The notes beneath the pieces are model-generated. The model saw nothing but the letters and a program-made list of their open reading frames with translations, ran no database searches and was not told the origin of the DNA. This document shows positions 16,393 to 43,617 of a stretch of 64,000 bases of DNA, in pieces. A program made the position numbers and the translations under genes. The stretch is from an uncultured Bacteroidota bacterium. Lineage in GTDB: Bacteria; Bacteroidota; Bacteroidia; Chitinophagales; Chitinophagaceae. The stretch is taken from contig CADEDV010000013.1 in the NCBI GenBank assembly GCA_902826165.1, positions 1 through 64,000 of the forward strand, given 5' to 3'. How positions within the stretch are numbered: the first letter of the stretch is position 1; each line of letters opens with the position of its first letter.

Positions 16393-16424
16393 ATTAATAA
16401 ACGATTAGCAGATAAATATATAAT

Positions 16425-17162: not shown

Positions 17163-17171
17163 AAAACCAGC

Positions 17172-19730: not shown

Positions 19731-19743
19731 AAAAAATAAAATT

Positions 19744-23424: not shown

Positions 23425-23442
23425 CCGGTTAAAACGAAAGGC

Positions 23443-25092: not shown

Positions 25093-25109
25093 CTCTTATC
25101 AATAACAGT

Positions 25110-27725
25110 ATGAGAAAGACAATAACGATTGCCTTATTGGTTGCCTCTATGTCCGGCAATACCCAGGAATACAAATCATTTCCGATGTGGAATCATCAAC
25201 TGCCGGTTGACCAACGGGTAAACGATGTGGTGAGCCGTCTTACCCTGGAGGAGAAAGTTGCACAAATGCTGAATGCAACACCCGCCATTCCCCGGCTCGG
25301 AATTCCTGCGTATGACTGGTGGAATGAAGTGTTGCATGGCGTGGCAAGAACACCATTTAAGGTGACCGTATTCCCGCAAGCAATCGGAATGGCCGCCACC
25401 TGGGATACAAATTCCTTATACAGGATGGCCGATTATTCTGCGCTGGAAGGAAGAGCCATTTATAATAAAGCAATAGAACAGGGAAGAACCAATGAACGAT
25501 ACCTGGGATTAACCTACTGGACACCGAATATTAATATCTTCCGTGACCCCCGCTGGGGACGTGGGCAGGAAACCTATGGTGAAGATCCTTTTCTGACAGC
25601 GATGCTTGGAAAAGCATTTGTAAGAGGATTACAGGGTGAAGATCCCAAGTATTTAAAAGCAGCAGCCTGTGCCAAACATTTTGCCGTACACAGCGGTCCT
25701 GAACCCACCCGGCATTCAGATAATTTTAATCCAAGCACCTATGATTTATGGGATACTTACCTGCCTGCCTTCAGAGAATTGATCACCAAAGCGAATGTAG
25801 CCGGTGTGATGTGTGCTTACAATGCCGTGGATACACAACCCTGTTGTGCCAATGACCAGTTGATGAATGACATTTTACGAAAGCAATGGAATTTCACAGG
25901 CTATGTTACCAGTGATTGCTGGGCAGTAGATGATTTTTATAAATACCACAAAACACATAAAGATGCCACTGCTTCCGCAATTGATGCCGTGATCCATGGG
26001 ACAGATGTTGAATGTGGCGTTTCCGTTTACAAAACATTGGTGGATGCAGTGAAGAATGGATTGATAAAAGAAGAACAGCTTGATATTTCATTGAAACGCC
26101 TGTTTACGATCCGTTACCGACTGGGTATGTTCGACCCTGTGTCTATGGTAAAATATGCGCAAACGCCTTCTTCTGTTCTGGAAAGTGCAGCACACAAAGC
26201 CCATGCGCTAAAGATGGCACAGCAATCAATCGTATTGCTGCGGAATGAGAACAACACACTCCCCATCTCTAAAAGCATAAAAAAAATTGCCGTTATTGGT
26301 CCTAATGCCAATAACAGTATTTCAGTATTGGGTAATTACAACGGTATTCCTTCCCGCATTGTAACCATCCTGGACGGTATTAAAGAAAAGCTTGGTAAGG
26401 GAACAGAAGTCGTGTATGAAAAAGTAATCAATTTCACGAATGATACCATTCTCAGCTATACAGATATTAACCACCGGTACAGCTGGGATGGCAAACAAGG
26501 TTTCCTGGCCGAATATTACAATAACAGGGATTTAAATGGAAGCCCAGTTGTCACAAAAACTGAAAATAAAATTGATCATGCCTGGCAACGTGGTGATGTG
26601 ATCGGTGATAACCTAACTGCCGTTAATTTTTCAGCCCGCTACACGACCTGGTATATCCCTGAAGAAACCGGCACTACAACCTTTGAAGTAGAAGCTAACG
26701 ACGGGTACAGGTTGCTGATAAATGGCAAAGAGGTACTGAATGCCTGGCTGCGCAACCGCTGGGGAGCCAAAACATATCAGCTTGAAACAAAAAAAGACAC
26801 CGCTTATAAAATTGAGCTCGAATACTGGCAGGGCGACGAAGAAGCCAATGTGGCTTTACGTACCGGTACTTTTGGACGTACTGATTTTACCGCCCTCGCC
26901 AACAAGCTTAAAGATGCTGATGTAATTCTGTTTGCAGGCGGCATTTCTCCCCAGTTGGAAGGAGAAGAAATGCCGGTGAATGCACCGGGCTTTAACGGTG
27001 GTGACAGGACCAGTATTCTATTGCCCGCTGTTCAGACAAAATTATTAAAAGCACTCAAAGCAACTGGAAAGCCGGTAGTATTTGTAATGATGACAGGCAG
27101 TGCAATTGCAACGCCCTGGGAAAGTGAAAATATCCCCGCCATTATTAATGCGTGGTATGGTGGCCAAAGCGCAGGAACCGCTATTGCAGATGTTTTATTT
27201 GGCGATTATAATCCTGCAGGCCGCTTACCGGTTACCTTTTATAAAAGTGACAGTGACTTACCGAGTTTTAGTGACTACAGTATGAATGGAAGGACCTATC
27301 GTTACTTTAAAGGTGAAGTTTTATATCCCTTCGGTTTTGGGTTAAGCTATACAAATTTTAAATATTCCAGGCTCACTTTTCCAGCGATTACAAAAAGCGG
27401 GAAAGGAATAATTGTATCAGTAAACGTTACAAATAACGGGGGTATCAATGGCGAGGAGGTAGTCCAGTTATATATTTCAAGCCAGGACCAAAGTACTTAT
27501 ACCCCGTTAAAATCATTGAAAGGGTTTAAAAGAATTACATTGAAAGCCGGAGAGAGCAAGCTGGTACAATTTCAACTGACAGCGCAGGATTTATCTATTG
27601 TTGATAATAACGGAAATCTGAAACCATTGAAAGGCAAGGTCGCTATCAGTATAGGTGGCGGGCAACCTGGTGTAACCAATAGAACCACTTCTAATGTTTT
27701 AACCAAAATAACAATAGTACAATAA
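25110..27725 (+). CDS. GH3 beta-xylosidase with PA14 insertion, secreted
   Basis: This 871-residue periplasmic exo-hydrolase begins with a short signal peptide (about residues 1-18) and is probably a xylan 1,4-beta-xylosidase. The N-terminal barrel has YDWWNEVLHGVAR, NIFRDPRWGRGQETYGEDP and AKHFAVHSGPE, and the nucleophile is Asp269 in VTSDCWAVDDF. A PA14 domain (about residues 465-600, GFLAEYYNNRDLNG onwards) is inserted in the alpha/beta sandwich domain, and a fibronectin-III-like domain closes the protein. The WNE and SDCWAV motifs are those of GH3 xylosidases rather than typical beta-glucosidases. The stop codon overlaps the next start (TAATG). Confidence 0.92.
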   Translation: MRKTITIALLVASMSGNTQEYKSFPMWNHQLPVDQRVNDVVSRLTLEEKVAQMLNATPAIPRLGIPAYDWWNEVLHGVARTPFKVTVFPQAIGMAATWDTNSLYRMADYSALEGRAIYNKAIEQGRTNERYLGLTYWTPNINIFRDPRWGRGQETYGEDPFLTAMLGKAFVRGLQGEDPKYLKAAACAKHFAVHSGPEPTRHSDNFNPSTYDLWDTYLPAFRELITKANVAGVMCAYNAVDTQPCCANDQLMNDILRKQWNFTGYVTSDCWAVDDFYKYHKTHKDATASAIDAVIHGTDVECGVSVYKTLVDAVKNGLIKEEQLDISLKRLFTIRYRLGMFDPVSMVKYAQTPSSVLESAAHKAHALKMAQQSIVLLRNENNTLPISKSIKKIAVIGPNANNSISVLGNYNGIPSRIVTILDGIKEKLGKGTEVVYEKVINFTNDTILSYTDINHRYSWDGKQGFLAEYYNNRDLNGSPVVTKTENKIDHAWQRGDVIGDNLTAVNFSARYTTWYIPEETGTTTFEVEANDGYRLLINGKEVLNAWLRNRWGAKTYQLETKKDTAYKIELEYWQGDEEANVALRTGTFGRTDFTALANKLKDADVILFAGGISPQLEGEEMPVNAPGFNGGDRTSILLPAVQTKLLKALKATGKPVVFVMMTGSAIATPWESENIPAIINAWYGGQSAGTAIADVLFGDYNPAGRLPVTFYKSDSDLPSFSDYSMNGRTYRYFKGEVLYPFGFGLSYTNFKYSRLTFPAITKSGKGIIVSVNVTNNGGINGEEVVQLYISSQDQSTYTPLKSLKGFKRITLKAGESKLVQFQLTAQDLSIVDNNGNLKPLKGKVAISIGGGQPGVTNRTTSNVLTKITIVQ

Positions 27726-28807
27726 TGAAAAAATTATTGCTGATATCGTTTATTGTTACGGTTGTAAACGGCTATGCCCAGTTCCCGAAGGTGGATATCC
27801 CTGGCTCTGAAATAAGAACAATAACTTCTTCCATTGTTACGGGTCAGGAGTATGAATTACAGATACTTCTCCCCGGCGGATATAAAAACAGCACAAAAAA
27901 TTACCCGGTAGTTTACCTGATGGATTCACAGTGGGATTTCCCGTTGGTAAAATCGCTTTACGGGCAGCACTATTATGATGGATTTATACCGGAACTGATC
28001 ATTGTCGGTGTCACTTGGGGTGGAACAAAGCCAAATCCTGACAGCCTGAGAGCAAGGGATTATACACCAACAAATGAAGCAAGAATTCCGCAAAGCGGTG
28101 GTGCTGGCAAATTCCTATCCTTCTTAAAAAATGAATTATTCCCTTTTATTGAAACGAATTATAAAGCAGACAGCAGTAACAGAACATTAATGGGTTGCTC
28201 ACTCGGCGGGCTATTTACACTGTATACTTTATTTACCCAGCCGGACTTATTCTCCGGCTATGCCGCGGCCAGCCCTGCGATTGGCTGGGATAAAGAAGTT
28301 GTATATACATACGAAAAAGAATTTCGTTCAAAAAAAATGGCAAAGCCTGTAAGAGTTTATATAACAACAGGCGATGTAGAGAGAAGCAGACCTGCATTTG
28401 AAAAATTTGTCGTCAGGATGAGTGATAGTAAAGATTTCTTAGTAAGTCTCCTGTCAAAAGTATTAGAAAATACAGGGCACTCGGGTACCAAAAGTGAAAC
28501 CTATAGTCGTGGAATGCAGTATATATTTGAACGGCCAAGGCTTAACCTGGCTACAAATATCCTGGATAAATATACAGGGTTCTACACAACCGTAAATGGT
28601 AATAAAATCGAGCTAAGGAACGAAAATGGCAACCTTGTCCTGTACTTTTCGCCTGCTAATAGGTATGTTCTTTATGCAGCCGGTGAAATGATTTTTTATT
28701 CCACGTCAGAATTCCTCAATATACAATTCAAGCTTAACAATGCCAGTATCGAGGGTTTTCAGTTGAACAGGTATGGGGAATCACAATTTATTAAAAAACA
28801 ATTATGA
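27725..28807 (+). CDS. Secreted alpha/beta-hydrolase esterase (CE1/esterase D-like)
   Basis: This 360-residue protein has a signal peptide (cleavage near NGYA) and an alpha/beta-hydrolase fold of the esterase D/Fes type. PVVYLMDSQWDF precedes the oxyanion region, the nucleophile elbow is GCSLGG with Ser159, and the acid and His (GHSGTKSETYSRG) follow. Residues after about 280 form a small extra domain. Feruloyl or acetyl esters on xylan are the likely substrates given the context. It overlaps the GH3 stop by one base and the next start by four, indicating translational coupling. Confidence 0.8.
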   Translation: MKKLLLISFIVTVVNGYAQFPKVDIPGSEIRTITSSIVTGQEYELQILLPGGYKNSTKNYPVVYLMDSQWDFPLVKSLYGQHYYDGFIPELIIVGVTWGGTKPNPDSLRARDYTPTNEARIPQSGGAGKFLSFLKNELFPFIETNYKADSSNRTLMGCSLGGLFTLYTLFTQPDLFSGYAAASPAIGWDKEVVYTYEKEFRSKKMAKPVRVYITTGDVERSRPAFEKFVVRMSDSKDFLVSLLSKVLENTGHSGTKSETYSRGMQYIFERPRLNLATNILDKYTGFYTTVNGNKIELRNENGNLVLYFSPANRYVLYAAGEMIFYSTSEFLNIQFKLNNASIEGFQLNRYGESQFIKKQL

Positions 28808-30759
28808 TGAAAATCATTTCTATAAAGCTAACAGTTCCACTGGCTGTTTTTTTCCTGTTGTTTACTTCGCAGGATGTAACAGCACAAGTTAGACTGCCCC
28901 GGTTAGTAAGAGACAGCATGGTACTGCAACGGGATACAAAGATCAATATATGGGGATGGGCTTCAAACAATGAAAAAATTACTATCTCATTCAATAAAAA
29001 AAATTATAGCACAAAAGCAACTGCTGATGGCAAATGGAGAATTATTCTTCCTGCAATGAAAGCAGGCGGCCCTTACAAGATGATCATTTCAGGTAAAAAT
29101 AAAATAACCCTTACAGATATATTAATCGGTGATGTATGGTTTTGTAGCGGACAATCGAATATGGTACACCAAATGAATATTCATGATGTGACCTATGCCA
29201 ATGAAATAGCTGCCGCTGATTATCCTGAAATCAGGCAATTCTGGATTCCAACATTGACAAATTTGGAAGGCCCCAAAGATGATTTGCCGAATGGCAACTG
29301 GAAATCAGCAGTCGGCGATGATGTACGGCCATTTTCAGCCGTTGCTTACTTTTTCGCAAAAAAAATATATGAAAAATACCAAATCCCGATCGGCATCATC
29401 AACGCCAGTGTGGGTGGCAGCCCTATTGAGGCATGGACAAGTGAAGAAGGATTAAAAGAATTTCCCGCACTCCAAACAACGATTCAAAAAAATAAAGACA
29501 CTGCTTATATCAATGGGTTAAACCGTCGGGCATTTGCCAGCAACACAAATAGAACTCAGCAAATCATTGATAAAGGCCTGACCGAAACCCCAAAATGGTT
29601 TGAAACTACTTATAGCCCTAAAGGAGGATGGCGTACCATCAATATCCCCGGCTATTGGGAGGACCAGGGAATAAAAGATCTTAACGGGGTAGTTTGGTAC
29701 CGGAGAGAAATTGATATCCCGGCAACAATGACCGGAAAGCCGGCAAAGGTTTTCCTGGGAAGAATTGTGGATGCAGATATCTTATACATCAACGGTAAAC
29801 AGGCAGGCAACACCACTTATATGTACCCGCAAAGACGCTATAATGTTCCCGCTGATTTGCTGAAGGCCGGTAAAAACATTTTTGTTGTTAAAGTAACCAA
29901 CAATTTTGGCAAAGGTGGTTTTGTTCCTGATAAACCCTATTGCATATTTGCCGGTACTGATACCATTGATCTAAAGGGCACCTGGCAATACAAAGTTGGT
30001 GAAGTATTTGTTCCCCGTACTGGGCCTGTCGTTGCGGGGATCAATGCACAAAACCAACCGGCAGCTTTGTATAATGCAATGGTAGCACCCCTTATTAATT
30101 ATACTATCAGGGGTATTTGCTGGTACCAGGGCGAAAGTAACACCGGGAGAGCAGCAGAATATACAAAACTACAACCGGTGCAGATCGCTGACTGGAGAAA
30201 CAAGTGGCAGCAGGGAAATATCCCTTTCTTATTTGTACAGCTTCCAAATTTCATGGATGCAAATTATCTTCCATCAGAAAGTCAGTGGGCTGAACTGAGA
30301 GAAGCTCAATTAAAATCTTTATCTGCTCCCAATACAGCCATGGCAGTAGCAATTGATTTAGGCGAATGGAATGACATTCATCCTGACAATAAAAAAGATG
30401 TTGGAGAACGCCTGGCATTGGCAGCACAAAAAATGGTCTATGGCGAAAACATTGTTTACTCAGGCCCTGTTTACCAATCTTCAAAAACAGAAGAGAATAA
30501 AATTATCGTCACATTTGCTCATACCGGAACTGGTTTAATATCAAATGATGGAGAGGAACTCAATGAGTTTGCCATTGCAGGAGCAGATAAAAAATTTGTG
30601 TGGGCCAAAGCAACGATTGAAGGAGATAAAGTAATTGTGTGGAATGAGAACATAAAAAACCCCGTGTATGTCCGGTATGCCTGGGCAGACAACCCCGTCA
30701 ATCCGAATTTATATAATAAAGAAGGACTGCCGGCTTCACCATTCAGAACAGATAAATAA
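28804..30759 (+). CDS. SGNH (sialate O-acetylesterase-like) acetylxylan esterase
   Basis: This is a 651-residue secreted esterase of the SASA family. The signal peptide ends near DVTA. FCSGQSNM holds nucleophile Ser118, GICWYQGESN is the second SGNH block, and DIHPDNK contains the catalytic His526. Residues about 260-400 are an inserted galactose-binding-like beta-sandwich (VVWYRREIDIP, DADILYINGKQAG, GKNIFVVKV) of the sort found in GH2 enzymes. Although the family is named after sialate, the xylan locus points to deacetylation of xylan. It overlaps the previous gene by four bases, so the two esterases form a coupled pair. Confidence 0.88.
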   Translation: MMKIISIKLTVPLAVFFLLFTSQDVTAQVRLPRLVRDSMVLQRDTKINIWGWASNNEKITISFNKKNYSTKATADGKWRIILPAMKAGGPYKMIISGKNKITLTDILIGDVWFCSGQSNMVHQMNIHDVTYANEIAAADYPEIRQFWIPTLTNLEGPKDDLPNGNWKSAVGDDVRPFSAVAYFFAKKIYEKYQIPIGIINASVGGSPIEAWTSEEGLKEFPALQTTIQKNKDTAYINGLNRRAFASNTNRTQQIIDKGLTETPKWFETTYSPKGGWRTINIPGYWEDQGIKDLNGVVWYRREIDIPATMTGKPAKVFLGRIVDADILYINGKQAGNTTYMYPQRRYNVPADLLKAGKNIFVVKVTNNFGKGGFVPDKPYCIFAGTDTIDLKGTWQYKVGEVFVPRTGPVVAGINAQNQPAALYNAMVAPLINYTIRGICWYQGESNTGRAAEYTKLQPVQIADWRNKWQQGNIPFLFVQLPNFMDANYLPSESQWAELREAQLKSLSAPNTAMAVAIDLGEWNDIHPDNKKDVGERLALAAQKMVYGENIVYSGPVYQSSKTEENKIIVTFAHTGTGLISNDGEELNEFAIAGADKKFVWAKATIEGDKVIVWNENIKNPVYVRYAWADNPVNPNLYNKEGLPASPFRTDK

Positions 30760-30765
30760 CCGAAC

Positions 30766-32310
30766 ATGAAAAGACATATTATCACATTTGTTATCGCAGC
30801 ATTTTCCGGGCCGTTGCTATTTGCCCAAAACCGTATTGTACTTTTTCCTGAAAAAGCCAGGGATACCATTAACAAAAATATCTACGGTCATTTTGCTGAA
30901 CACCTGGGCCGCTGCATTTATGACGGAATTTATGTGGGAGATAATCAAAAGAAAATACCAAACAGGAATGGAATACGACTTGACATAGTGGAGGCATTAA
31001 AAAAATTAAAGACGCCGGTGCTGCGTTGGCCCGGCGGCTGCTTTGCCGACACCTATCACTGGAAAGATGCGATCGGCCCCAAAGACAAGAGAAAACAGAT
31101 AAGCAACACCTCCTGGGGAAACGTAAGGGAGGATAATAGTTTTGGCACGCATGAATTCCTCGATTTTTGTGAACTAATTGGAGCCGAACCTTATCTCGCC
31201 GTAAATATGGGTGCTGGCACAGTGCAGGAAGCGGTGGATTGGGTGCAATACGTTAACCATGCCAACGGAAGCAGTTATTTAACGGATATGCGGATGCAAA
31301 ATGGCAGAAGCAAACCCTGGAATGTAAAATATTGGGGCGTTGGTAACGAATCATGGGACTGTGGTGGCCATATGACAGCCGGTTATTACGTTAACGAATA
31401 CAGGAAGTATGCTACTATGATGACCAGCTATAGCAATACAGAAGGTTTATTCCGCATTGCTGTCGGCCCGGGCACTGAAGATTATGTCTGGACAGAGACT
31501 GTGATGAAAGAAGTACCGGCCCGCCGTATTGAAGGCCTTTCTATTCACCATTACTCAGTGATCAACTGGTCCAAAAAAGGATCAGCTACTCAATTTTCTG
31601 AAGAAGAATATTTCCGGACAATGGAACAGGCCTGGCGCATGGAAGGAATGATAAAAAAGAACGGCGAAGTGATGGATAAATATGACCCGCAAAAGAAAGT
31701 AGCGCTGATCGTGGATGAATGGGGCGGTTGGTATGATGTGGAACCGGGTACTAATGGCGCATTCTTATACCAGCAAAACAGCATGCGGGATGCCATGATT
31801 GCCGGTTTATCGCTGAATATTTTTAATAATCATTGTGACCGGGTGCGGATGGCCAACCTGGCACAGATGGTGAATGTGTTGCAGGCAATTGTACTCACCA
31901 AAGAAGAAAAGCTGGTGCTCACTCCTACATATCATGTAATGGAGATGTACAATGTGCACCAGGATGCAGTGATGATACCACTGGCTATGGTAAGCAAGGA
32001 TTATACGTTGGGCGAAAAAAAGATACAAGCCGTTTCTGCCTCCGCATCAAAAGATAAAAGTGGAATTATACATATTTCACTTGTGAACATAGATGCTAAT
32101 AATACACAGGAAATTAAAATTGACCTGGGTGATTTACCGGCAACGGCTGTAACAGGAAGGATTCTTCAGTCTGGCAAACTACAAGACCATAACAGTTTTG
32201 AAAATCCCGGTAAGATAAACCCTGCTGTTTTTAACAATACATCAATAAATGGAAACAATCTTTCGGTAAAACTACCGCCCTTCTCTGTAGTGGTACTGGC
32301 ATTGAAATAA
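30766..32310 (+). CDS. GH51 alpha-L-arabinofuranosidase
   Basis: This 514-residue secreted exo-enzyme (signal peptide ending GPLLFA) removes arabinofuranose side chains (EC 3.2.1.55). INKNIYGHFAEHLGRCIYDG and LRWPGGCFADTYHWKD are GH51 landmarks; the acid/base is Glu195 in WGVGNESWDCGG and the nucleophile Glu318 in IVDEWGGWYD. The C-terminal beta-sandwich ends PFSVVVLALK. Many GH51 enzymes are cytoplasmic, so export here fits a scheme in which debranching takes place in the periplasm. Liberated L-arabinose is a candidate substrate for the oxidative genes downstream, since no araA/araB is seen. Confidence 0.93.
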   Translation: MKRHIITFVIAAFSGPLLFAQNRIVLFPEKARDTINKNIYGHFAEHLGRCIYDGIYVGDNQKKIPNRNGIRLDIVEALKKLKTPVLRWPGGCFADTYHWKDAIGPKDKRKQISNTSWGNVREDNSFGTHEFLDFCELIGAEPYLAVNMGAGTVQEAVDWVQYVNHANGSSYLTDMRMQNGRSKPWNVKYWGVGNESWDCGGHMTAGYYVNEYRKYATMMTSYSNTEGLFRIAVGPGTEDYVWTETVMKEVPARRIEGLSIHHYSVINWSKKGSATQFSEEEYFRTMEQAWRMEGMIKKNGEVMDKYDPQKKVALIVDEWGGWYDVEPGTNGAFLYQQNSMRDAMIAGLSLNIFNNHCDRVRMANLAQMVNVLQAIVLTKEEKLVLTPTYHVMEMYNVHQDAVMIPLAMVSKDYTLGEKKIQAVSASASKDKSGIIHISLVNIDANNTQEIKIDLGDLPATAVTGRILQSGKLQDHNSFENPGKINPAVFNNTSINGNNLSVKLPPFSVVVLALK

Positions 32311-32315
32311 AAGAA

Positions 32316-34391
32316 ATGAAAAAAGTAGTATTTATAGCTGTATTATCCCATGTACTGGTAACAACACCGGGAATTACACAATTCAATCCTGCCTGGCAGG
32401 GAAAAAAAGCGGCCGTAGTGCTTACTTATGATGATGCGATTAATGAGCATTTGGATAATGCTGTTCCGCTGCTTGATTCGCTCGGGCTGAAAGCCACGTT
32501 TTATGTTACAGCCTTTTCCAATTCAGTACAAACAAGATTGGATGACTGGAAAAAATTAGCTGCTTCCGGTCATGAATTGGGCAACCATACTTTATTTCAT
32601 CCCTGCAACGGCGGCACTGGCCGGGAATGGGTAAGTAAGCAAAACGATTTGAAGAATTTTTCTGTCAGGCGAATGGAAAACGAAATACGTATGACAAACC
32701 TGTTTTTGCAGGCATTGGATGGAAAAACAAAAAGAACCTTTGCTTTTACCTGTGGTGATATGAAAATTGAGGATTCTTTATTTATTAATGGTATGAAAAC
32801 CGATTTTGTGGCGGCAAGGGCAGTAAGAGATGAAATGCACAAAATAGGTGAAGTGGATTTGTATAATGTAGATTGTTACATGGTAAATAATCACAGTTTC
32901 GGGGAGATGAAAGTATGGGTCGACAAAGCGATTCAAACAAACTCGTTACTGGTCATTTTATTTCATGGTGTAGGTGGTGGTAATGGGCTAAACGTTTCCC
33001 TTGACAATCACAGAAAAATTCTCTCGTATATCAGGCAACAAGAAAAAGATTTGATGATAGCACCTCTGCTGGCAGTGGCTGAGCATATCAGGGATTGGCA
33101 GGCAAGAGATAAACAGGTAAAAGCCCGGCAGCAGGCCACACAGGCGGATTATAAAAATATGCTGGCGCAATTAGAAATAGGATCAACAAGACCCGGCCCT
33201 TCGGGCAATCCATCAGCACCCAATGCTGCCAATGCAGATGAATCAAAAGCATCTGCTTATACTTCATTGCCCTATGCATTACTATTGAAAAACGGGAAGA
33301 AAGTAACCACTACAAAAACATGGTGGAATAAACGAAGACCTGAGATCGTTGAAGATTTTGATAAAGAAGTGTATGGCCGTGTACCAACAAACACCCCGAA
33401 AGTGAGATGGGAAGTTATCAGCATAACAGATACAGTAATTGGAAATCAAAAAGCGATCACCAGGAACCTGTTGGGTCATGTTGACAATTCCGAATATCCA
33501 AAAATCAACGTGGATATTCAGTTGTCAGTGACTACACCGAAGAATATCAGCAAACCCGTGCCATTGATCATGGAGTTTGGATTTATTTTTTCCGCTGGCT
33601 TCCAGCCACCGTCATCGGCAGGCACACCTGTACAAAAAGGATGGCAGGAACAATTGCTGGAACAGGGCTGGGGTTTTGCCATCATCGTACCGACAAGTTA
33701 CCAGGCTGATAATGGGGCCGGACTTACACAGGGAATAATTGGTTTATGTAACAAAGGGCAGCATCGCAAACCAGATGATTGGGGCTCACTCCGTGCATGG
33801 GCCTGGGGTGCCAGCCGTGCTCTTGATTATTTTGAAACCGATACCGCTATAGATGCAAAAAGAATTGGTATTGAAGGATTGTCAAGATATGGTAAAGCGG
33901 CTATTGTAACGATGGCCTATGAGCCACGAATTGCCATTGGCTTTATCGGTTCATCTGGTGCAGGTGGTGTAAAAATCTTACGCCGTCTCTATGGCGAACA
34001 AGTCGAAAATCTTGCGTCATCGGCAGAGTATCATTGGTTCGCCGGCAATTTTATTAAATATGCTGCCGATCCCTTAACACAAAACGATCTTCCTGTAGAT
34101 GCACATCAGTTAGTTGCCTTATGTGCCCCACGACCTGTTTTTATTAGTTCTGGCTCACCCAATGTAGAAGGAAAATGGGTGGATGCAAAAGGAATGTTTT
34201 TGGGAGGAGTTCATGCCGGGTCTGTGTACAAACTACTTGGAAAAGAAGATCTCGGCACAATGGAATATCCGGCTGAACAAACAGCTTTGATTGCTGGAGA
34301 AATTGCGTTTCGCCAGCATGAAGGCGGACATACAACCGGCCCTAACTGGCCAACCTTTATAGAGTTTGCAAAAAGATATTTTAACCGGTAA
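32316..34391 (+). CDS. CE4 polysaccharide deacetylase - CE15 glucuronoyl esterase fusion
   Basis: This 691-residue secreted bifunctional esterase has two domains. Residues about 25-270 are a NodB-type deacetylase: LTYDDA with Asp39/Asp40, metal ligands His91 and His95 in NHTLFH, and ILFHGVGG. A linker of about 50 residues rich in Pro, Ala and Ser follows. Residues about 320-690 match CE15: the nucleophile is Ser523 in GLSRYGKAA, the catalytic His is probably His672 in GGHTTGPNW, and LRAWAWGASRALDY is also family-like. CE15 cleaves the ester between glucuronoxylan and lignin alcohols; CE4 probably removes acetyl groups. The gene follows GH51 by five bases. Confidence 0.88.
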   Translation: MKKVVFIAVLSHVLVTTPGITQFNPAWQGKKAAVVLTYDDAINEHLDNAVPLLDSLGLKATFYVTAFSNSVQTRLDDWKKLAASGHELGNHTLFHPCNGGTGREWVSKQNDLKNFSVRRMENEIRMTNLFLQALDGKTKRTFAFTCGDMKIEDSLFINGMKTDFVAARAVRDEMHKIGEVDLYNVDCYMVNNHSFGEMKVWVDKAIQTNSLLVILFHGVGGGNGLNVSLDNHRKILSYIRQQEKDLMIAPLLAVAEHIRDWQARDKQVKARQQATQADYKNMLAQLEIGSTRPGPSGNPSAPNAANADESKASAYTSLPYALLLKNGKKVTTTKTWWNKRRPEIVEDFDKEVYGRVPTNTPKVRWEVISITDTVIGNQKAITRNLLGHVDNSEYPKINVDIQLSVTTPKNISKPVPLIMEFGFIFSAGFQPPSSAGTPVQKGWQEQLLEQGWGFAIIVPTSYQADNGAGLTQGIIGLCNKGQHRKPDDWGSLRAWAWGASRALDYFETDTAIDAKRIGIEGLSRYGKAAIVTMAYEPRIAIGFIGSSGAGGVKILRRLYGEQVENLASSAEYHWFAGNFIKYAADPLTQNDLPVDAHQLVALCAPRPVFISSGSPNVEGKWVDAKGMFLGGVHAGSVYKLLGKEDLGTMEYPAEQTALIAGEIAFRQHEGGHTTGPNWPTFIEFAKRYFNR

Positions 34392-34400
34392 ACTTTTTTT

Positions 34401-35534
34401 ATGAAAAATGGTAATAACGGATCAAGAAGAAAATTTCTGTATGATATAGGTCTTGCGGGGTTGAGTATTCCATTTATATCTGCCGTTGGTAATTGTACCG
34501 GCGAAACTAAAAAACAAAAAACCATGTCTGCTAAGAATGGAAAATTGGGAATCGCATTAGTGGGGTTGGGTGGTTATGCCGGTGGTCAGCTGGCTCCTGC
34601 CCTTTTACAAACCGAGCATTGTTACCTCGCAGGTATTGTAACAGGTACTCCTTCAAAAATTCCGGTATGGAAAGAAAAGTATAATATCCCTGATAAGAAT
34701 ATATACAGCTACGATAACTATGATTCCATAAAAGACAATCCCGATATTGATATTATTTATGTAGTGCTGCCTAACAATATGCATGCAGAATATACCATTC
34801 GTGGTTTTGAAGCGGGTAAACATGTGATCTGTGAAAAGCCAATGGCAATTACAGTAGAAGATTGTGATAAAATGATTGCTGCCCGTAAAAAAGCAAACAA
34901 GCTTCTTTCCATTGGCTATCGTTTACATTTTGAGCCTTACAATCTCGAAATGGTTCGTTTAGGTACGCAGAAAATTTATGGCCATCTAAAAAAGATAAGT
35001 GGCGGATTTGGTTTCCGGGCTGGTCCTTCACAATGGAGGCTGACACAAAAATATGCAGGCGGCGGTCCTTTGATGGACGTGGGTATCTATGTTATACAAG
35101 CTATGTGCTATACTACCGGGATGGAACCCATTGCTGTTACGGCGCAGGAAGGAATAAAAACAGATCTGGAAAGATTCAGTGAAGTGGAACAATCGCTTAC
35201 CTGGCAAATGGAGTTCCCCAATGGACTAATAACTGAATGCAAAACAAGCTATGCCGACAATATGAATTTCTTAAAAGCAGAAGCAGAAAAAGGAATATTT
35301 GAATTAACTTCTGCTTATAATTACACCGGGCAAAAAGGTAATACCCCTGCTGGGGCAATGGATTTCCCGCATATAAATCAGCAGGCCAGGCAAATGGATG
35401 CTTTTGCTTTGACTGTAAAAAATAAGAAACAAAGCATTGTGCCGGGGGAAATGGGAAGACGGGATGTGAAATATTTACAGGCTGTTTATGAAGCAATGCG
35501 GTCGGGAAAAAGGGTTTTAATAAAAGCCGAATAG
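34401..35534 (+). CDS. Tat-exported Gfo/Idh/MocA oxidoreductase (glucose-fructose oxidoreductase-like)
   Basis: This 377-residue enzyme carries a twin-arginine signal (SRRKFLYDIG, residues 8-17, then a hydrophobic stretch), so it should be exported folded with its nicotinamide cofactor. The Rossmann loop LVGLGGYAGG is followed by CEKPMAI with catalytic Lys146 and GGGPLMDVGIY with the probable catalytic Tyr230. The QWRL segment and C-terminal PGEMGRRDVKYLQAVYEA resemble Zymomonas-type glucose-fructose oxidoreductase, which keeps NADP bound and oxidises an aldose to a lactone in the periplasm. A lactonase, a sugar-acid dehydratase and a GntP permease follow, so oxidation of xylose, arabinose or a uronate is inferred. 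What re-oxidises the cofactor is unknown. Confidence 0.85.
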   Translation: MKNGNNGSRRKFLYDIGLAGLSIPFISAVGNCTGETKKQKTMSAKNGKLGIALVGLGGYAGGQLAPALLQTEHCYLAGIVTGTPSKIPVWKEKYNIPDKNIYSYDNYDSIKDNPDIDIIYVVLPNNMHAEYTIRGFEAGKHVICEKPMAITVEDCDKMIAARKKANKLLSIGYRLHFEPYNLEMVRLGTQKIYGHLKKISGGFGFRAGPSQWRLTQKYAGGGPLMDVGIYVIQAMCYTTGMEPIAVTAQEGIKTDLERFSEVEQSLTWQMEFPNGLITECKTSYADNMNFLKAEAEKGIFELTSAYNYTGQKGNTPAGAMDFPHINQQARQMDAFALTVKNKKQSIVPGEMGRRDVKYLQAVYEAMRSGKRVLIKAE

Positions 35535-35607
35535 AAATACTACAGTACAAGAGTGCGACGCAACAGGCGATGCCATACGAACAAAAGCTAGTAACCAAAA
35601 AAAAACT

Positions 35608-37326
35608 ATGTCAAAAAAGCTACGAAGCCAGGATTGGTTTGGCAAAAAAAACAAAGATGGGATCATTTACCGCAGCTGGATGAAGAACCAGGGCATGCCC
35701 ACCGATATGTTTGATGGCAGGCCGGTGATTGGTATTTGCAATACATTCAGCGAGCTGACACCCTGCAACGCCCATTTTCGGGAACATGCAGAAATGGTAA
35801 AACGTGGCGTATTGGAAGCCGGCGGCTTTCCGGTAGAATTTCCGATCATGAGCCTGGGTGAAACTTTATTGAAACCAACTGCTATGCTTTTCCGCAACCT
35901 TGCCAGTATGGATGCGGAAGAATCCATCCGTGGCAACCCGGTTGATGGAGTGGTGTTATTGACTGGTTGCGATAAAACAACTCCTTCAACTGTAATGGGC
36001 GCAGCAAGTGTTGGCTTGCCAACAATAGTTGTACCCGGCGGGCCCATGCTGAATGGGCGATACAAAGGACAGACGATCGGCAGCGGAACACATGTGTGGA
36101 AATTTGATGAAGATATGAAGACTGGCAAGATGACGCAGGAGGAGTGTGAATTTGCAGAAAGTTGCATGAGCAGAAGTATTGGACATTGCATGACAATGGG
36201 AACAGCTTCAACGATGGCTTGCATGGTAGAATCACTTGGATTAACATTAAGTGGTGCCTCAGCCATACCTGCTGCCGACAGCCGGAAAAAACAAATGGCA
36301 CAATTGAGTGGCAGAAGAATTGTGGAAATGGTAAAAGAAAATCTGACCATTGATAAAATACTGACAAGAGAAGCTTTTGAAAATGCCATCATGGTCAACG
36401 CAGCTGTTGGCGGCTCTTCCAATTTCATCATCCATCTCACTGCTATTGCCGGGAGAATCGGTGTTGACTTAACATTAGAAGATTTTGATACCATCGGCAG
36501 CAAGATCCCATTACTGCTGAACCTGATGCCTTCTGGTAAATACCTGATGGAAGATTTTTACTATGCAGGTGGCCTGCCTGTCATATTAAATGAACTTAAA
36601 AATAAATTGCATAAAAATGTAGTGACTGTTACCAGCAAAAACCATCATGAAAATATCAACGGTAATACAGAATGCTATAACGGTGATGTGATCGCCACGT
36701 ACGAAAAACCGTTGATACCCGAAGCCGGCTGTGTTGTGGTAAAAGGAAACCTGGCACAGAATGGTGCCGTGATAAAACCCTCAGCCGCCACACCTGCCCT
36801 GATGAAACATAAAGGCCGTGCTGTTGTGTTTGAAAGCATTGAAGATTATAATGCAAGGATTGATGACCCCGAGTTGGATATTGACGAGACCTGTGTGATG
36901 GTGCTGAAATACGTAGGCCCTGTCGGTTACCCGGGTATGCCTGAAGTGGGAAATATGGCATTGCCGAAAAAAATACTGGAGAAAGGGATTAAAGATATGG
37001 TCCGCATCTCTGATGGAAGAATGAGTGGCACTGCGTATGGAACGGCAGTACTGCATGTATCGCCAGAGTCTGCGATCGGCGGCAACCTTGCATTGGTACA
37101 AAACGGTGATATGGTCGAACTTGATGTTGAACAACGATTGTTACACTTGCATGTAAGTGACGAAGAGCTGGCAAAACGAAGATCAAAATGGCTGGCCCCA
37201 AAGCCTGCCGCTGAAAGAGGCTATGTAAGTTTATATATCAAACATGTAATGGGTGCTGATAAAGGTGCTGATCTTGATTTCCTGCAGGGTAGTTCCGGTA
37301 GTGTGGTAACAAGGGATTCGCATTAA
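35608..37326 (+). CDS. IlvD/Edd-family sugar-acid dehydratase (xylonate/arabinonate type)
   Basis: This 572-residue cytoplasmic dehydratase converts an aldonate to its 2-keto-3-deoxy derivative using an Fe-S cluster. Candidate cluster cysteines are Cys44 (GICNTF), Cys121 (GCDKTTP) and Cys194 (GHCMTMGTAS); DGRMSGTAYGTAVLHVSPE is the substrate-region signature. The opening KKLRSQDWFGKKNKDGIIYR and the overall pattern fit the D-xylonate/L-arabinonate dehydratases rather than dihydroxyacid dehydratase (IlvD) or 6-phosphogluconate dehydratase. Its neighbours (GFOR-like enzyme, lactonase, FAH dehydratase, GntP) support this. Xylonate (EC 4.2.1.82) and arabinonate (EC 4.2.1.25) cannot be separated by eye. 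Confidence 0.87.
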   Translation: MSKKLRSQDWFGKKNKDGIIYRSWMKNQGMPTDMFDGRPVIGICNTFSELTPCNAHFREHAEMVKRGVLEAGGFPVEFPIMSLGETLLKPTAMLFRNLASMDAEESIRGNPVDGVVLLTGCDKTTPSTVMGAASVGLPTIVVPGGPMLNGRYKGQTIGSGTHVWKFDEDMKTGKMTQEECEFAESCMSRSIGHCMTMGTASTMACMVESLGLTLSGASAIPAADSRKKQMAQLSGRRIVEMVKENLTIDKILTREAFENAIMVNAAVGGSSNFIIHLTAIAGRIGVDLTLEDFDTIGSKIPLLLNLMPSGKYLMEDFYYAGGLPVILNELKNKLHKNVVTVTSKNHHENINGNTECYNGDVIATYEKPLIPEAGCVVVKGNLAQNGAVIKPSAATPALMKHKGRAVVFESIEDYNARIDDPELDIDETCVMVLKYVGPVGYPGMPEVGNMALPKKILEKGIKDMVRISDGRMSGTAYGTAVLHVSPESAIGGNLALVQNGDMVELDVEQRLLHLHVSDEELAKRRSKWLAPKPAAERGYVSLYIKHVMGADKGADLDFLQGSSGSVVTRDSH

Positions 37327-37351
37327 GCCCCTTATCCCCAAAAGGAGGGCT
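37326..37351. repeat. Short imperfect GC-rich hairpin after the dehydratase gene
   Basis: AGCCC (37326-37330) pairs with GGGCT (37347-37351), with further partial pairing inside, directly at the dehydratase stop. It has no T tract, so it is not an obvious terminator. The purine/pyrimidine-run style resembles the small degenerate intergenic repeats common in Bacteroidota. It may equally be an mRNA-processing stem inside the operon. Confidence 0.25.
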
Positions 37352-37395
37352 CAGGTTTGAGACTCATTTAACTACTGCAAAAAACATTAGCGCAT

Positions 37396-38412
37396 ATGAA
37401 ATACTATTTCCTTTTCTTTTCAATTGCGGGAGTAATGGCCTGTAATAACAAAGAAAATAAAAACCAGGAAGAGACTTATAAAACAACCGGCAGTATTGAA
37501 CGAGCTGGTGCTGCATTAGATACCATTATTGACAACAATACAAAAATTGAAATCATCGCAGAAGGTTTCCAATGGAGTGAAGGGCCTTTATGGGTGGAAT
37601 CACAAAAAATGTTGTTATTCTCCGATGTGCCCAGGGATACCGTTTATAAATGGACAGAAGAAAAAGGTAAAGAAGTTTACCTTACCCCTTCCGGCTATAC
37701 TGACAGTATTCCAAGAGGTGGCGAAATGGGCTCTAATGGTTTAGCTCTTGACAAAGATGATCATCTTGTTTTGTGTCAATGTGGGAATCGGCAAATTGCA
37801 ATCATGGATGCCCCGTTTGATAAGCCGGTACCAAAATATATTGGTCTTGCCAAGCAGTATAATGGGAAAAAATTCAACAGTCCTAACGATGTAATTGTAA
37901 GCCGCCAGGGAGATATATTTTTTACGGATCCTCCATATGGATTAGAAACCCAAAGCGATGATGATCCCAAAAAAGAGATCCCCTGGAACGGGGTTTATAA
38001 AGTAAAAACAAATGGAGAAGTTATATTGCTTGTTGATAGTATTCCCCGCCCTAACGGTATTGCATTTCTTCCCGGCGAAAAACAATTGATCATTGCCTGT
38101 TCTGATCCTGCAAAACCAAATTGGTATATCTATGATGTAACTGAAGATTCTCTGGCTAATGGGAGAATTTTTTACAGCACAGCCCATGAAAGAGAAGGGT
38201 TAAAAGGGTTGCCGGATGGTTTAAAGGTGGACAGCAAAGGGATCATTTTTGCCAGCGGCCCTGGTGGTATCTGGATATTTAACAGTGAAGAAAAGTTGCT
38301 GGGCAAAATAAAGCTGGATGAAGCTGCTTCGAATGTGGCGTTGTCAGCAGATGAAAAAACTTTGTATGTAACTAATGACATGCAGGTATTACGGATTAAA
38401 CTAAGAAAATAG
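37396..38412 (+). CDS. SMP-30/gluconolactonase-family sugar lactonase, lipoprotein
   Basis: This 338-residue six-bladed beta-propeller lactonase has a lipobox ending VMAC (lipidated Cys16), so it acts in the periplasm or at the outer membrane. EGFQWSEGPLW holds the metal-binding Glu, and FNSPNDVIVSRQGDIFFTDPPYGL and PNGIAF are the other family blocks. It should hydrolyse an aldonolactone made by an upstream dehydrogenase. The only candidate in the window, the GFOR-like protein, is also exported, so the two steps share a compartment. Confidence 0.88.
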   Translation: MKYYFLFFSIAGVMACNNKENKNQEETYKTTGSIERAGAALDTIIDNNTKIEIIAEGFQWSEGPLWVESQKMLLFSDVPRDTVYKWTEEKGKEVYLTPSGYTDSIPRGGEMGSNGLALDKDDHLVLCQCGNRQIAIMDAPFDKPVPKYIGLAKQYNGKKFNSPNDVIVSRQGDIFFTDPPYGLETQSDDDPKKEIPWNGVYKVKTNGEVILLVDSIPRPNGIAFLPGEKQLIIACSDPAKPNWYIYDVTEDSLANGRIFYSTAHEREGLKGLPDGLKVDSKGIIFASGPGGIWIFNSEEKLLGKIKLDEAASNVALSADEKTLYVTNDMQVLRIKLRK

Positions 38413-38416
38413 GAGC

Positions 38417-39253
38417 ATGAAAATTTATAAATTAAACTCCACTGTTGCCATTGACGACAACGGACAATATTATTCTGTCCCTGTCACGGACTGGGATAGT
38501 TTTATCAACGATGATGATCTTCTTTCCAAACTGAAGGGACTTATCCGGTCTGGTAAGGCCAGTAAAGCAACCGGTATTGAAGAATCAGCAATAGTTGCCC
38601 CGGTCGGCAGCGGGCAGGAATTATGGGCCTGCGGGGTCACCTACCTCAGGAGCAAAGTGGGAAGGCAGGAAGAAAGTAAGGCAAGTGGTGGCGCCGATTT
38701 TTATGCCAAAGTATATGAAGCAGAACGACCAGAAGTATTTTTTAAAGCCACTCCCAACCGGGTTGTTGGTCATCAGCAAAAAGTAAGGATCAGGAAAGAC
38801 AGTACCTGGGATGTACCGGAACCAGAACTTACATTGCTGGTCACTTCCTCCGGGAAAATTATTGGTTACACGATAGGTAATGATATGAGCAGTCGCAGTA
38901 TTGAGGGAGAAAACCCCTTGTACCTGCCACAGGCAAAAACATATGATGCCTGTGCTGCAATCGGGCCCTGTATTTATATCACAGATCGGCCTCTTGATAA
39001 AAGCACACTGATTTCAATGGTGATCAGCAGGGATAGCCAAAAAGTATTTGAGGGAAGTGTAGCATTGGAACAAATGAAAAGAACGCCGGAAGAGTTAGTG
39101 TCCTTTGTTTATCGTGCATGTTCCTTTCCGCAGGGATCTTTGATCATGACAGGTACCGGTATTGTACCCGGCAGTGATTTCACATTAGAAAGCGGTGATG
39201 AGATCAGGATTTCCATTGAAAATATAGGAACATTAGTAAATGTTGTCGCATAA
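38417..39253 (+). CDS. FAH-family 2-keto-3-deoxy-sugar-acid dehydratase (candidate)
   Basis: This 278-residue cytoplasmic protein has the fumarylacetoacetate-hydrolase fold. Diagnostic blocks are LWACGVTYLRSK, the metal-ligand VPEPELTLLV and the segment from GNDMSSR through GENPLYLPQA. This combination resembles the 2-keto-3-deoxy-D-arabinonate/xylonate dehydratases (Sulfolobus KdaD, Caulobacter XylX type), which produce 2-oxoglutarate semialdehyde, more than true FAH or acylpyruvases. It lies four bases after the lactonase gene. Alternatives are a 2,4-diketo acid hydrolase giving pyruvate plus glycolate, or a Dahms-like lyase. The semialdehyde dehydrogenase needed next is not in the window. 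Confidence 0.8.
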   Translation: MKIYKLNSTVAIDDNGQYYSVPVTDWDSFINDDDLLSKLKGLIRSGKASKATGIEESAIVAPVGSGQELWACGVTYLRSKVGRQEESKASGGADFYAKVYEAERPEVFFKATPNRVVGHQQKVRIRKDSTWDVPEPELTLLVTSSGKIIGYTIGNDMSSRSIEGENPLYLPQAKTYDACAAIGPCIYITDRPLDKSTLISMVISRDSQKVFEGSVALEQMKRTPEELVSFVYRACSFPQGSLIMTGTGIVPGSDFTLESGDEIRISIENIGTLVNVVA

Positions 39254-39279
39254 GGGTTAGCAATAAAAAAATCAGCAGT

Positions 39280-40455
39280 ATGAAAAAAGGGGCAGGAAAA
39301 TTATTCGTATTGATTACTATTTGCTATTGTTTTGGAGGTTGTGCAGAATTAAAGAGCATACCGAAGCCTGCAACTAACTCTTCGGTATTAAAAGATATTT
39401 ATAAGGATGCTTTTCTCATGGGAACAGCCGTCAATGATGCAATCGTTTCAGGAACAGATAAGGCTTCACAGGATATTGTACTCCGGCAGTTCAATAGTAT
39501 AACGCTTGAAAACTCAATGAAAGCTGCCCTGGTAAATCCAGAACCCGGCATTTTTAATTTTGGGCCGGCAGATGCATTTGTTGCATTTGGCGAGGCCCAT
39601 AACATGTTTATTGTCGGGCATACGCTGGTTTGGCACAACCAGGTACCTTCCTGGTTTTTTGTAAATGCGGGTGGAAAGCCCAATACAAAAGAAGAACAAA
39701 TTGAACGTCTCCGCAGTCACATTAAGGCTGTTGCAGGCCGGTATGCAGGAAGGGTGCATGCCTGGGATGTTGTAAACGAGGTGATTGATAACGATGGCAG
39801 CTACAGGCCCACCAGTTGGGTAAATGCAGTTGGTAATGGCGATACACTGGTGAAATATGCGTTCAAATTTGCCAGCGAGTTTGCACCTAACACCGAATTA
39901 TATTATAACGATTTCAATGCATGGCGGCCCCAAAAAAGAGATGGCATCGTTCGTATAGTAAAGATGCTCCAAAAAGAAGGCATCCGCATTGATGGAGTAG
40001 GTATGCAGGGGCATTGGGGGCTTAATTATCCCCAAACATCTTATATTGAAGCAGCTATTGATGCTTATGCAGCCTGCGGGGTTAAAGTAATGATTACAGA
40101 GCTGGATGTGGATGTTTTGCCTTTGACAAAAGAAGGCCAGATTATTGGCCAGGGCATGAGCGATAAACAGTTTCAGCTGGAAGAGTTTAAAAATTATTTT
40201 GATCCTTATTCCAACAGATTACCTGACAGCTTGCAAACATTATTGGCGAAAAGATATGAAGATATCTTTCACATCTTTTATAAACGGAAAGATAAAATCG
40301 CAAGGGTGACCTGCTGGGGCGTGCATGATGGAATGAGCTGGAAAAATGATTATCCTATTCCCAACCGGGCGAATTATCCATTGCTTTGGGACAGGAACCG
40401 GCAACCTAAACAGGCATTAGACGCTGTACTAAAGGTTCCCGGAATAGCGAAATAA
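39280..40455 (+). CDS. GH10 endo-1,4-beta-xylanase, lipoprotein (2)
   Basis: This is the second GH10 of the operon (391 residues), a lipoprotein with lipobox CFGGC. The acid/base is Glu167 (WDVVNEVIDND) and the nucleophile Glu274 (MITELDVDVLP); VGHTLVWHNQVPSWFF and VTCWGVHDGMSWKND are also present. It is clearly a paralogue of the GH10 at 19744 but has a longer region around residues 290-305 (LTKEGQIIGQGMSDKQ), suggesting different subsite preferences. It sits between the FAH-type and GntP genes. Confidence 0.95.
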   Translation: MKKGAGKLFVLITICYCFGGCAELKSIPKPATNSSVLKDIYKDAFLMGTAVNDAIVSGTDKASQDIVLRQFNSITLENSMKAALVNPEPGIFNFGPADAFVAFGEAHNMFIVGHTLVWHNQVPSWFFVNAGGKPNTKEEQIERLRSHIKAVAGRYAGRVHAWDVVNEVIDNDGSYRPTSWVNAVGNGDTLVKYAFKFASEFAPNTELYYNDFNAWRPQKRDGIVRIVKMLQKEGIRIDGVGMQGHWGLNYPQTSYIEAAIDAYAACGVKVMITELDVDVLPLTKEGQIIGQGMSDKQFQLEEFKNYFDPYSNRLPDSLQTLLAKRYEDIFHIFYKRKDKIARVTCWGVHDGMSWKNDYPIPNRANYPLLWDRNRQPKQALDAVLKVPGIAK

Positions 40456-40481
40456 TATTATCCCTGCATAATTAATAAACC

Positions 40482-41792
40482 ATGGAGTTGCTTGTTATTT
40501 TTTTTGCTATTTGCCTGCAAATATTCTTAACCTATAAAAAGGTAAGCCCTTTTTTATCTTTACTCGTTGTTGCCATACTGGCCGGGCTTTTTTTGGGGAT
40601 GGAACCCATGCAGGTCATTAAATCCATAGAGAAAGGAGTGGGAAATACATTAGGTGGATTGGCATTGATCATTTGCCTGGGTGCGGTGCTTGGCAAAGTG
40701 CTGGAAGCAGGTGGAGCTGCCGAAAAAATTTCCTCCACGCTGCTTACCGCCTTCGGTCAAAAAAATATTCAATGGGCTGTATTACTGACAGGCTTTTTGA
40801 TTGGCATTCCTTTATATTATAATGCAGGGTTTGTTATACTGGTGCCGCTGGTTTTTTCCATTGCCAGCAAGGCAAAACTTCCGGTATTATATGTTGCTAT
40901 CCCCATGGCAGCTTCTTTATCAACCACCCATTGCTTCCTTCCACCCCACCCCAGCCCGGCTTTTTTGGTCAATGCATTTAATGCTGATATGGGAAAAACG
41001 CTGATCTACGGGCTCATCATAACAATCCCTGTAGTCATTATTGCCGGTCCATTCTTAGGACGCCTGTTCAAAAAAACAGAACTAACTATCAAATCATTTT
41101 TTTTATCGGCAGAAGAGAAAACAGAAAAAGAGCTACCCGCTGCATTTCCAAGCTTCCTGGTTGGCCTCTTACCAGTTCTGCTAATAACAGTGGCTGTTTT
41201 GGCAGATAATTTCCTGCCTGATCAGTTGCTAAAAAAAATATTACTTTTTATTGGTGATCCTACCATTGCTTTATTGTTATCCGTGTTCCTCGCCATCTGG
41301 TATTTTGGACTGAGAGCTGGTAAGACAATGGAGACAACCATGAAATGGCTGAACGATGCCATTGCAGGCATTGCCATGATCGTACTGATCATAACAGCAG
41401 GCGGCGTTTTTAAACAGGTGCTCCAGGATAGCGGAACAGACAAATACATAGCCTCATTTAGCAGTAAATGGCAAATGCCCCCGTTGATCTTTGCCTGGGT
41501 AATTACTGCTTTATTAAGAGTTGCTATTGGCTCCGCAACAGTAGCAGGCATTACTGCGGCAGGTGTGGTAACCCCATTAGTAGCAACAGGAGTTGTATCA
41601 CCCGAGCTGATGGTACTGGCGGTGGGAACAGGCAGTGTTTTTGGTTCGCATGTAAATGATTCAGGTTTTTGGATGTTCAAGGAATTCTTCCATCTCTCTT
41701 TAAAACAAACCTTTCTTTCCTGGACAGTTATGGAAACCACTATATCAGTTTTAGGTTTACTGGGAGTATTAGTACTTGATCTGTTTATATGA
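40482..41792 (+). CDS. GntP-family sugar-acid:H+ symporter
   Basis: This 436-residue inner-membrane permease of the gluconate transporter family has about 12-14 hydrophobic segments. Markers include SPFLSLLVVAILAGLFLGM, GGAAEKIS, GIPLYYNAGFVILVPL, the loop TTHCFLPPHPSPA and the C-terminal GSVFGSHVNDSGFWMFKEFF. Known members take up gluconate and related aldonates or hexuronates. A sugar-acid importer here makes sense if the aldonate is formed outside the inner membrane by the Tat-exported oxidoreductase and the lactonase lipoprotein. It is the last gene of the plus-strand run. Confidence 0.9.
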   Translation: MELLVIFFAICLQIFLTYKKVSPFLSLLVVAILAGLFLGMEPMQVIKSIEKGVGNTLGGLALIICLGAVLGKVLEAGGAAEKISSTLLTAFGQKNIQWAVLLTGFLIGIPLYYNAGFVILVPLVFSIASKAKLPVLYVAIPMAASLSTTHCFLPPHPSPAFLVNAFNADMGKTLIYGLIITIPVVIIAGPFLGRLFKKTELTIKSFFLSAEEKTEKELPAAFPSFLVGLLPVLLITVAVLADNFLPDQLLKKILLFIGDPTIALLLSVFLAIWYFGLRAGKTMETTMKWLNDAIAGIAMIVLIITAGGVFKQVLQDSGTDKYIASFSSKWQMPPLIFAWVITALLRVAIGSATVAGITAAGVVTPLVATGVVSPELMVLAVGTGSVFGSHVNDSGFWMFKEFFHLSLKQTFLSWTVMETTISVLGLLGVLVLDLFI

Positions 41793-43583: not shown

Positions 43584-43617
43584 TGTACTATGTTTAATGT
43601 TATCAGGCATGTTTTCA

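Follow-up and report, generated by a model that had tools for sequence, protein, structure and literature searches.

The 64,000-nucleotide stretch of Chitinophagaceae DNA analysed here (the window) carries a gene in which a CE4-like polysaccharide deacetylase and a CE15 glucuronoyl esterase are joined in one reading frame. The gene lies within a same-strand run comprising, in order, GH67, SDR, GH115, GH10, MFS, GH43, GH43, GH3, CE1-like, CE20-like, and GH51 genes, then the fusion itself, followed by GFO/IDH, IlvD, lactonase, FAH, GH10, and GntP genes. The GH51 gene ends 5 bases before the fusion and the GFO/IDH/MocA gene begins 9 bases after it, with two LacI-type regulators preceding the xylan run and SusC/SusD-type genes following it on the opposite strand. 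The surrounding features are as follows.

14242..20886, + strand: GH67, SDR, GH115, and GH10 (alpha-glucuronidases and xylanase; Pfam)
22387..32310, + strand: GH43, GH43, GH3, CE1-like, CE20-like (SASA), and GH51, directly upstream of the fusion (Pfam)
34401..41792, + strand: GFO/IDH/MocA, IlvD-type dehydratase, SMP-30 lactonase, FAH hydrolase, GH10, and GntP permease, directly downstream (Pfam)
42108-43628, strand opposite to the fusion: SusD-type gene (judged from sequence)
43618-46572 and 48267-51254, strand opposite to the fusion: SusC-type genes (judged from sequence)

GH67 and GH115 are alpha-glucuronidases, and glucuronoxylan is therefore the natural reading of the substrate. Three further observations concern the neighbouring genes. 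The CE20-like protein (28804-30759) contains a galactose-binding/GH2-type insert within its SASA domain, which fits the CE20 ancillary-domain layout. The oxidoreductase, IlvD-type dehydratase, SMP-30 lactonase, and FAH hydrolase at 34401-39253, whose order is retained in L139 and L160, suggest oxidative pentose or uronate catabolism within the xylan locus. The GH10 frame at 19678-20886, called from a TTG, runs over the last 53 bases of the GH115 gene, and the true GH10 start probably lies further in.

The fusion gene runs from an ATG to a stop codon over 691 codons with no internal stop. Both of its domains exceed their curated Pfam cut-offs, namely the polysaccharide deacetylase PF01522 (residues 30-149, E 2.2e-16; 62.9 bits against a cut-off of 23.1) and the glucuronyl esterase PF22244 (residues 487-642, E 1.9e-30), whereas a CE20 (SASA) domain is absent from the chain by Pfam, the CE20-like protein being a separate gene. 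The sequence-only reading of one polypeptide combining a deacetylase with a glucuronoyl esterase was thereby borne out, and the six catalytic residues that it had listed (Asp39, Asp40, His91, His95, Ser523, and His672) were all located at those positions and are kept in every aligned homologue that covers them. The parts of the protein are listed below.

32316..34391, + strand: CE4-like–CE15 fusion gene, 691 aa (open reading frame, translation, Pfam)
32316..32378, + strand: N-terminal signal-like sequence, approximately residues 1-21, without a lipobox cysteine (sequence reading)
32385..33101, + strand: polysaccharide-deacetylase domain (PF01522, CE4-like), approximately residues 24-262 (Pfam; AlphaFold pLDDT 86, CE4 fold matches)
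32430..32435, + strand: Asp39-Asp40 (TYDD), predicted catalytic base and metal ligand (invariant in 18 aligned homologues)
32586..32600, + strand: His91 and His95 (HTLFH), predicted metal ligands, motif 2 (invariant in 18 aligned homologues)
32964..32966, + strand: His217 (LFHGVGG), motif-5 histidine (invariant in 18 aligned homologues)
33102..33170, + strand: junction, approximately residues 263-285, from the CE4 end helix to the mature N-terminal CE15 helix (comparison with separate genes; predicted helix)
33141..34388, + strand: CE15 domain, residues 276-691, including a Pro/Ala-rich N-terminal segment (aligned with TtCE15A, 6hsw, from residue 276; fold matches)
33882..33887, + strand: Ser523, predicted nucleophile, and Arg524 at the oxyanion arginine position (residue check, alignment)
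34167..34178, + strand: Glu618 (probable acid, TtCE15A Glu374 position) to Trp621 (TtCE15A Trp376 position) (alignment, conservation)
34329..34331, + strand: His672, predicted CE15 catalytic histidine (TtCE15A His427) (6hsw alignment, residue check)

The N-terminal half matches CE4 deacetylases by sequence (5jp6, E 5e-6) and retains both motif 1 (TxDD, as TYDD) and motif 2 (H(S/T)xxH, as HTLFH), the four Asp and His residues of which are invariant in 18 homologues. The AlphaFold model of the isolated domain (pLDDT 86) was matched to PdaC (Foldseek E 5e-9, probability 1.00), HP0310, PgdA, and the acetylxylan esterases 7fbw and 2c71, at an identity of approximately 20% or less. Motifs 3 (RxPY) and 4 (DxxD(W/Y)) were not recognisable in the alignment, the corresponding region reading FAFTCGD and NVDCY; hence the domain is best described as CE4-like rather than as a firm CE4 member. 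Deviation in motifs 3 to 5 has also been reported for the solved CE4 protein BoPDA (PMC11713874). No named CE4 subfamily was assigned, given that the named NCBIfam deacetylases (NodB, PgdA, PdaA, PdaB, and HfsH) scored 16-28 bits against equivalog cut-offs of 237-800. With motifs 3 and 4 unrecognisable and no NCBIfam match above cut-off, the substrate of this half is not settled by sequence, and its assignment to xylan derives from the gene context.

In the C-terminal half, the sequence from residue 276 to residue 688 matches TtCE15A, a glucuronoyl esterase of known crystal structure (6hsw, E 2.5e-115), and the best 32 structure matches are all CE15 (Z 21-31), parts of the CE15 model being of low pLDDT. 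Every CE15 sequence in the alignment retains Ser523, Arg524, and His672, and the position of the fungal-type acid is occupied by Ser547. In TtCE15A, which likewise has a serine (Ser304) at the fungal-acid position, mutation identified the shifted Glu374 as the catalytic acid (PMC6484129). The acid had been left unnamed in the sequence-only reading; the alignment adds Glu618, three residues ahead of Trp621, as the probable residue, with a Glu or Asp in the homologues at this position or at the next. By this alignment Glu618 is probably the catalytic acid, in a loop modelled at pLDDT below 50, and Asp623, also conserved, would be a second candidate. The full-length AlphaFold model was left out of the catalytic-acid geometry.

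The N-terminus of the protein, MKKVVFIAVLSHVLVTTPGITQF, resembles a signal peptide without a lipobox cysteine, as read from the sequence. Similarly, no C-terminal secretion domain is visible in the sequence, and the protein stops where the CE15 domain ends. As neither a lipoprotein cysteine nor such a domain can be seen, the fusion protein is probably exported, with the periplasm as the simplest reading; the earlier description of the protein as secreted therefore holds for its signal-like N-terminus but is better worded as exported and probably periplasmic. The short Pro/Ala-rich linker proposed at the same time (approximately residues 286-306) has to be abandoned, because stand-alone CE15 genes of relatives carry a similar sequence, STRPGPSGNPQAPNAAN, shortly downstream of their signal peptides, and TtCE15A also has the segment, which thus belongs to the CE15 domain. 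At approximately residues 263-280 lies the true junction, a short charged stretch with many Gln, Lys, and Arg residues, and comparison with the separate genes revealed that CE15 signal peptides are missing from the fusions. An unbroken helix spans residues 251-285 in the full-length model, its confidence falling below 60 past approximately residue 270. With a mean pLDDT of 69, this model does not allow the position of one active site relative to the other to be interpreted.

The sequence-only reading had also suggested a search for the same domain pair, which returned the in-frame fusion in 11 other distinct sequences, giving 12 in total, nearly all from Chitinophagaceae. The fusion was present in 9 of 396 genomes of the family sample, in 6 of 398 of the order sample (one from another family, G1382), and in 2 of 395 of the phylum sample, both from the family of the source genome; the source genome's own fusion was the only one found in the class sample. 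A separate named collection added those of Ferruginibacter sp. and the isolate Terrimonas pollutisoli H1YJ31. The fusion is thus not unique and recurs in Chitinophagales, and many relatives carry CE4 and CE15 as adjacent separate genes in either order. Both halves of the fused genes are under purifying selection, with dN/dS of approximately 0.04-0.08 in the comparisons with unsaturated dS, values that are approximate since several dS were near saturation. The recurrence in frame together with the low dN/dS indicates that the fusion is neither due to chance nor to an assembly error.

The history of the fusion differs between the two halves. The CE15 tree is compatible with a single origin for 11 of the 12 fusions (p 0.43; p 0.61 with L174 added). 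For the CE15 halves, a single origin of all fusions was rejected, that of L151 being excluded from the common clade (lnL 160 worse, p ~1e-57). That CE15 was swapped into an existing fusion in L151 could explain the data equally well, as L151 possesses the common HIKDWQxRD junction. The fusions are dispersed over the CE4 tree, requiring 9 changes, at least 5 of them forced by supported branches; gain, loss, and exchange are inseparable there because the fusions do not group. In L162 (Chitinophagaceae UBA1953, 6780-6918), an intact CE4 and the fusion junction residues EWQERDRQSKAI are followed by a stop codon, just past which lies a 50-bp remnant of the CE15 end that matches the fused relative L142 at 82% of nucleotides (E 2e-7). 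L162 is a decayed fusion in which CE15 was largely deleted and CE4 kept, and the fusion was accordingly dispensable there.

CE4-like and CE15 domains also occur in other pairings, assigned by similarity to proteins of the window and by sequence reading, not each by Pfam. These include CE20-CE4 (L099-L104 and L157), CE20-CE15 (L106), CE15-GH10 (L004, L091, and L098), CE4-GH43 (L105), and CE15-SGNH (L056) fusions. A CE15 gene directly follows the CE20-CE4 fusion in L101, L103, and L157, and the commonest alternative partners (CE20-like, GH43, and GH10) are also neighbour genes of the fusion in the source locus. In L173 (G1125), a CE15-like match falls within an open frame of 1003 codons, possibly another multidomain protein.

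Taken together, we consider it rather probable that the fusion is an exported, likely periplasmic, multicatalytic esterase acting on acetylated glucuronoxylan, a reading in which both activities, the substrate of the CE4-like half, the location, and the gain from fusion are all predicted. The CE4-like domain would act as a metal-dependent deacetylase, with Asp39 as the base and Asp40, His91, and His95 binding the metal. The CE15 domain would act as a serine glucuronoyl esterase employing Ser523, His672, Glu618, and the oxyanion Arg524, and would release the 4-O-methylglucuronate carboxylate from its ester-linked alcohol. Once both esters are removed, the alpha-glucuronidases (GH67 and GH115) and the GH10 xylanases encoded by the locus would gain access to the chain. 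The fusion probably originated from neighbouring genes when the stop codon of CE4 and the signal peptide of CE15 were lost, as supported by the separate adjacent genes common in relatives and the lack of CE15 signal peptides in the fusions; both activities would consequently be exported on a single polypeptide, at a ratio of 1:1. A bolder version, that the CE4-like half represents an unrecognised xylan-specific deacetylase subfamily acting beside esterified 4-O-methylglucuronate, such that the fusion clears both ester blocks before GH67 and GH115 act, is speculative and unlikely to be correct.

The most serious alternative is that two active esterases are simply joined without cooperation, operon neighbours having been fused by a chance deletion and then retained because a single signal peptide and a single ribosome-binding site are enough. 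It has somewhat less than an even chance of being right and accords with the recurrent fusion of operon neighbours in many pairings, the persistence of stand-alone and adjacent states in close relatives, the decay in L162, and the lack of inter-domain synergy in the characterised CE15-GH8 and GH10-CE15 fusions (PMC8417218). It fits less readily with the retention of the fusion across several genera of the main lineage, with purifying selection on both halves. The alternative that xylan is not the target of the CE4-like half, which might instead act, for example, as a de-N-acetylase on peptidoglycan or on oligomers of the chitin type, is unlikely. Its closest solved folds do include the peptidoglycan deacetylases PdaC and HP0310, but the acetylxylan esterases 7fbw and 2c71 were matched structurally as well, the CE4 homologues are fused to the xylan modules CE20, CE15, and GH43, and, of 65 distinct CE4 homologues for which flanking sequence was available, 51 have at least one xylan-type gene no more than 4 kb away and 36 have a CE15 near or fused; these loci were gathered with the fusion as query and are not an unbiased sample. 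The chito-oligomers named earlier as a test substrate are likewise without support, as the gene context points toward xylan. It is more doubtful still that one domain is catalytically dead and kept as a binding or structural module. Although Ser547 replaces the fungal-type CE15 acid and CE4 motifs 3 and 4 are unrecognisable, TtCE15A shares that serine and uses a shifted acid, an acid is retained at or beside the shifted position across the alignment, the CE4 metal and base motifs are invariant, and dN/dS is low in both halves. Lastly, an assembly, annotation, or frameshift artefact, conceivable for a draft genome of 95 contigs, was rejected with near certainty since 11 more sequences, all distinct and one of them from the isolate Terrimonas pollutisoli H1YJ31, repeat the identical fusion and its junction.

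Acetyl and glucuronoyl esters are two obstacles to biomass breakdown, and if both domains are active, the fusion would constitute a single ready-made enzyme removing the acetyl and glucuronoyl (lignin-type) esters of xylan. The same two modules occurring separate, adjacent, fused, and un-fused among closely related genomes also provide a natural comparison, by which the value of the fusion becomes directly testable. The fusion family further marks a CE4-like group of xylan loci, for which no characterised member was found.

Among known systems, TtCE15A of Teredinibacter turnerae (PDB 6hsw) can be aligned over the whole CE15 half, N-terminal segment included, and shares the Ser and His, the serine at the fungal-acid position, and a shifted acid by the xylan-side tryptophan; unlike the fusion, it has a single catalytic domain without a deacetylase, and its acid-to-Trp spacing is two rather than three. 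The CE4 acetylxylan esterases 7fbw and 2c71 and the peptidoglycan deacetylase PdaC (6h8l) share the fold and the canonical TxDD and HxxxH motifs with the CE4-like half, but differ in their low identity to it (approximately 20% or less) and in its lack of recognisable motifs 3 and 4. Putative CE4, CE15, and GH10 domains in CE20 proteins were already noted in PMC12313940; the cluster II members with an additional CE4 or CE15 domain likewise combine the same module types in one chain in Bacteroidota xylan loci and are matched here by L099-L104, L106, and L157, yet CE20 is one of the partners there and a direct CE4-CE15 pairing is unmentioned in the passages on them. The earlier remark that no characterised CE4-CE15 pair is known agrees with the open-access literature searched, in which no such deacetylase-glucuronoyl esterase protein was described. 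BeCE15A-Rex8A (CE15-GH8), CkXyn10C-GE15A (GH10-CE15), and OtCE15C (CE15-GH106) are similarly multicatalytic with CE15, the partner there being a glycoside hydrolase instead of a second esterase. BoCE6-CE1, FjCE6-CE1, and Fll4 (CE6-CE1-CE1) resemble the fusion in carrying at least two xylan esterase domains per protein in Bacteroidota, but pair acetyl with feruloyl esterases and contain neither a glucuronoyl esterase nor a metal-dependent CE4. The CE4-CE15 pairing is real, yet it is one more combination in the known style of fused plant-degrading enzymes.
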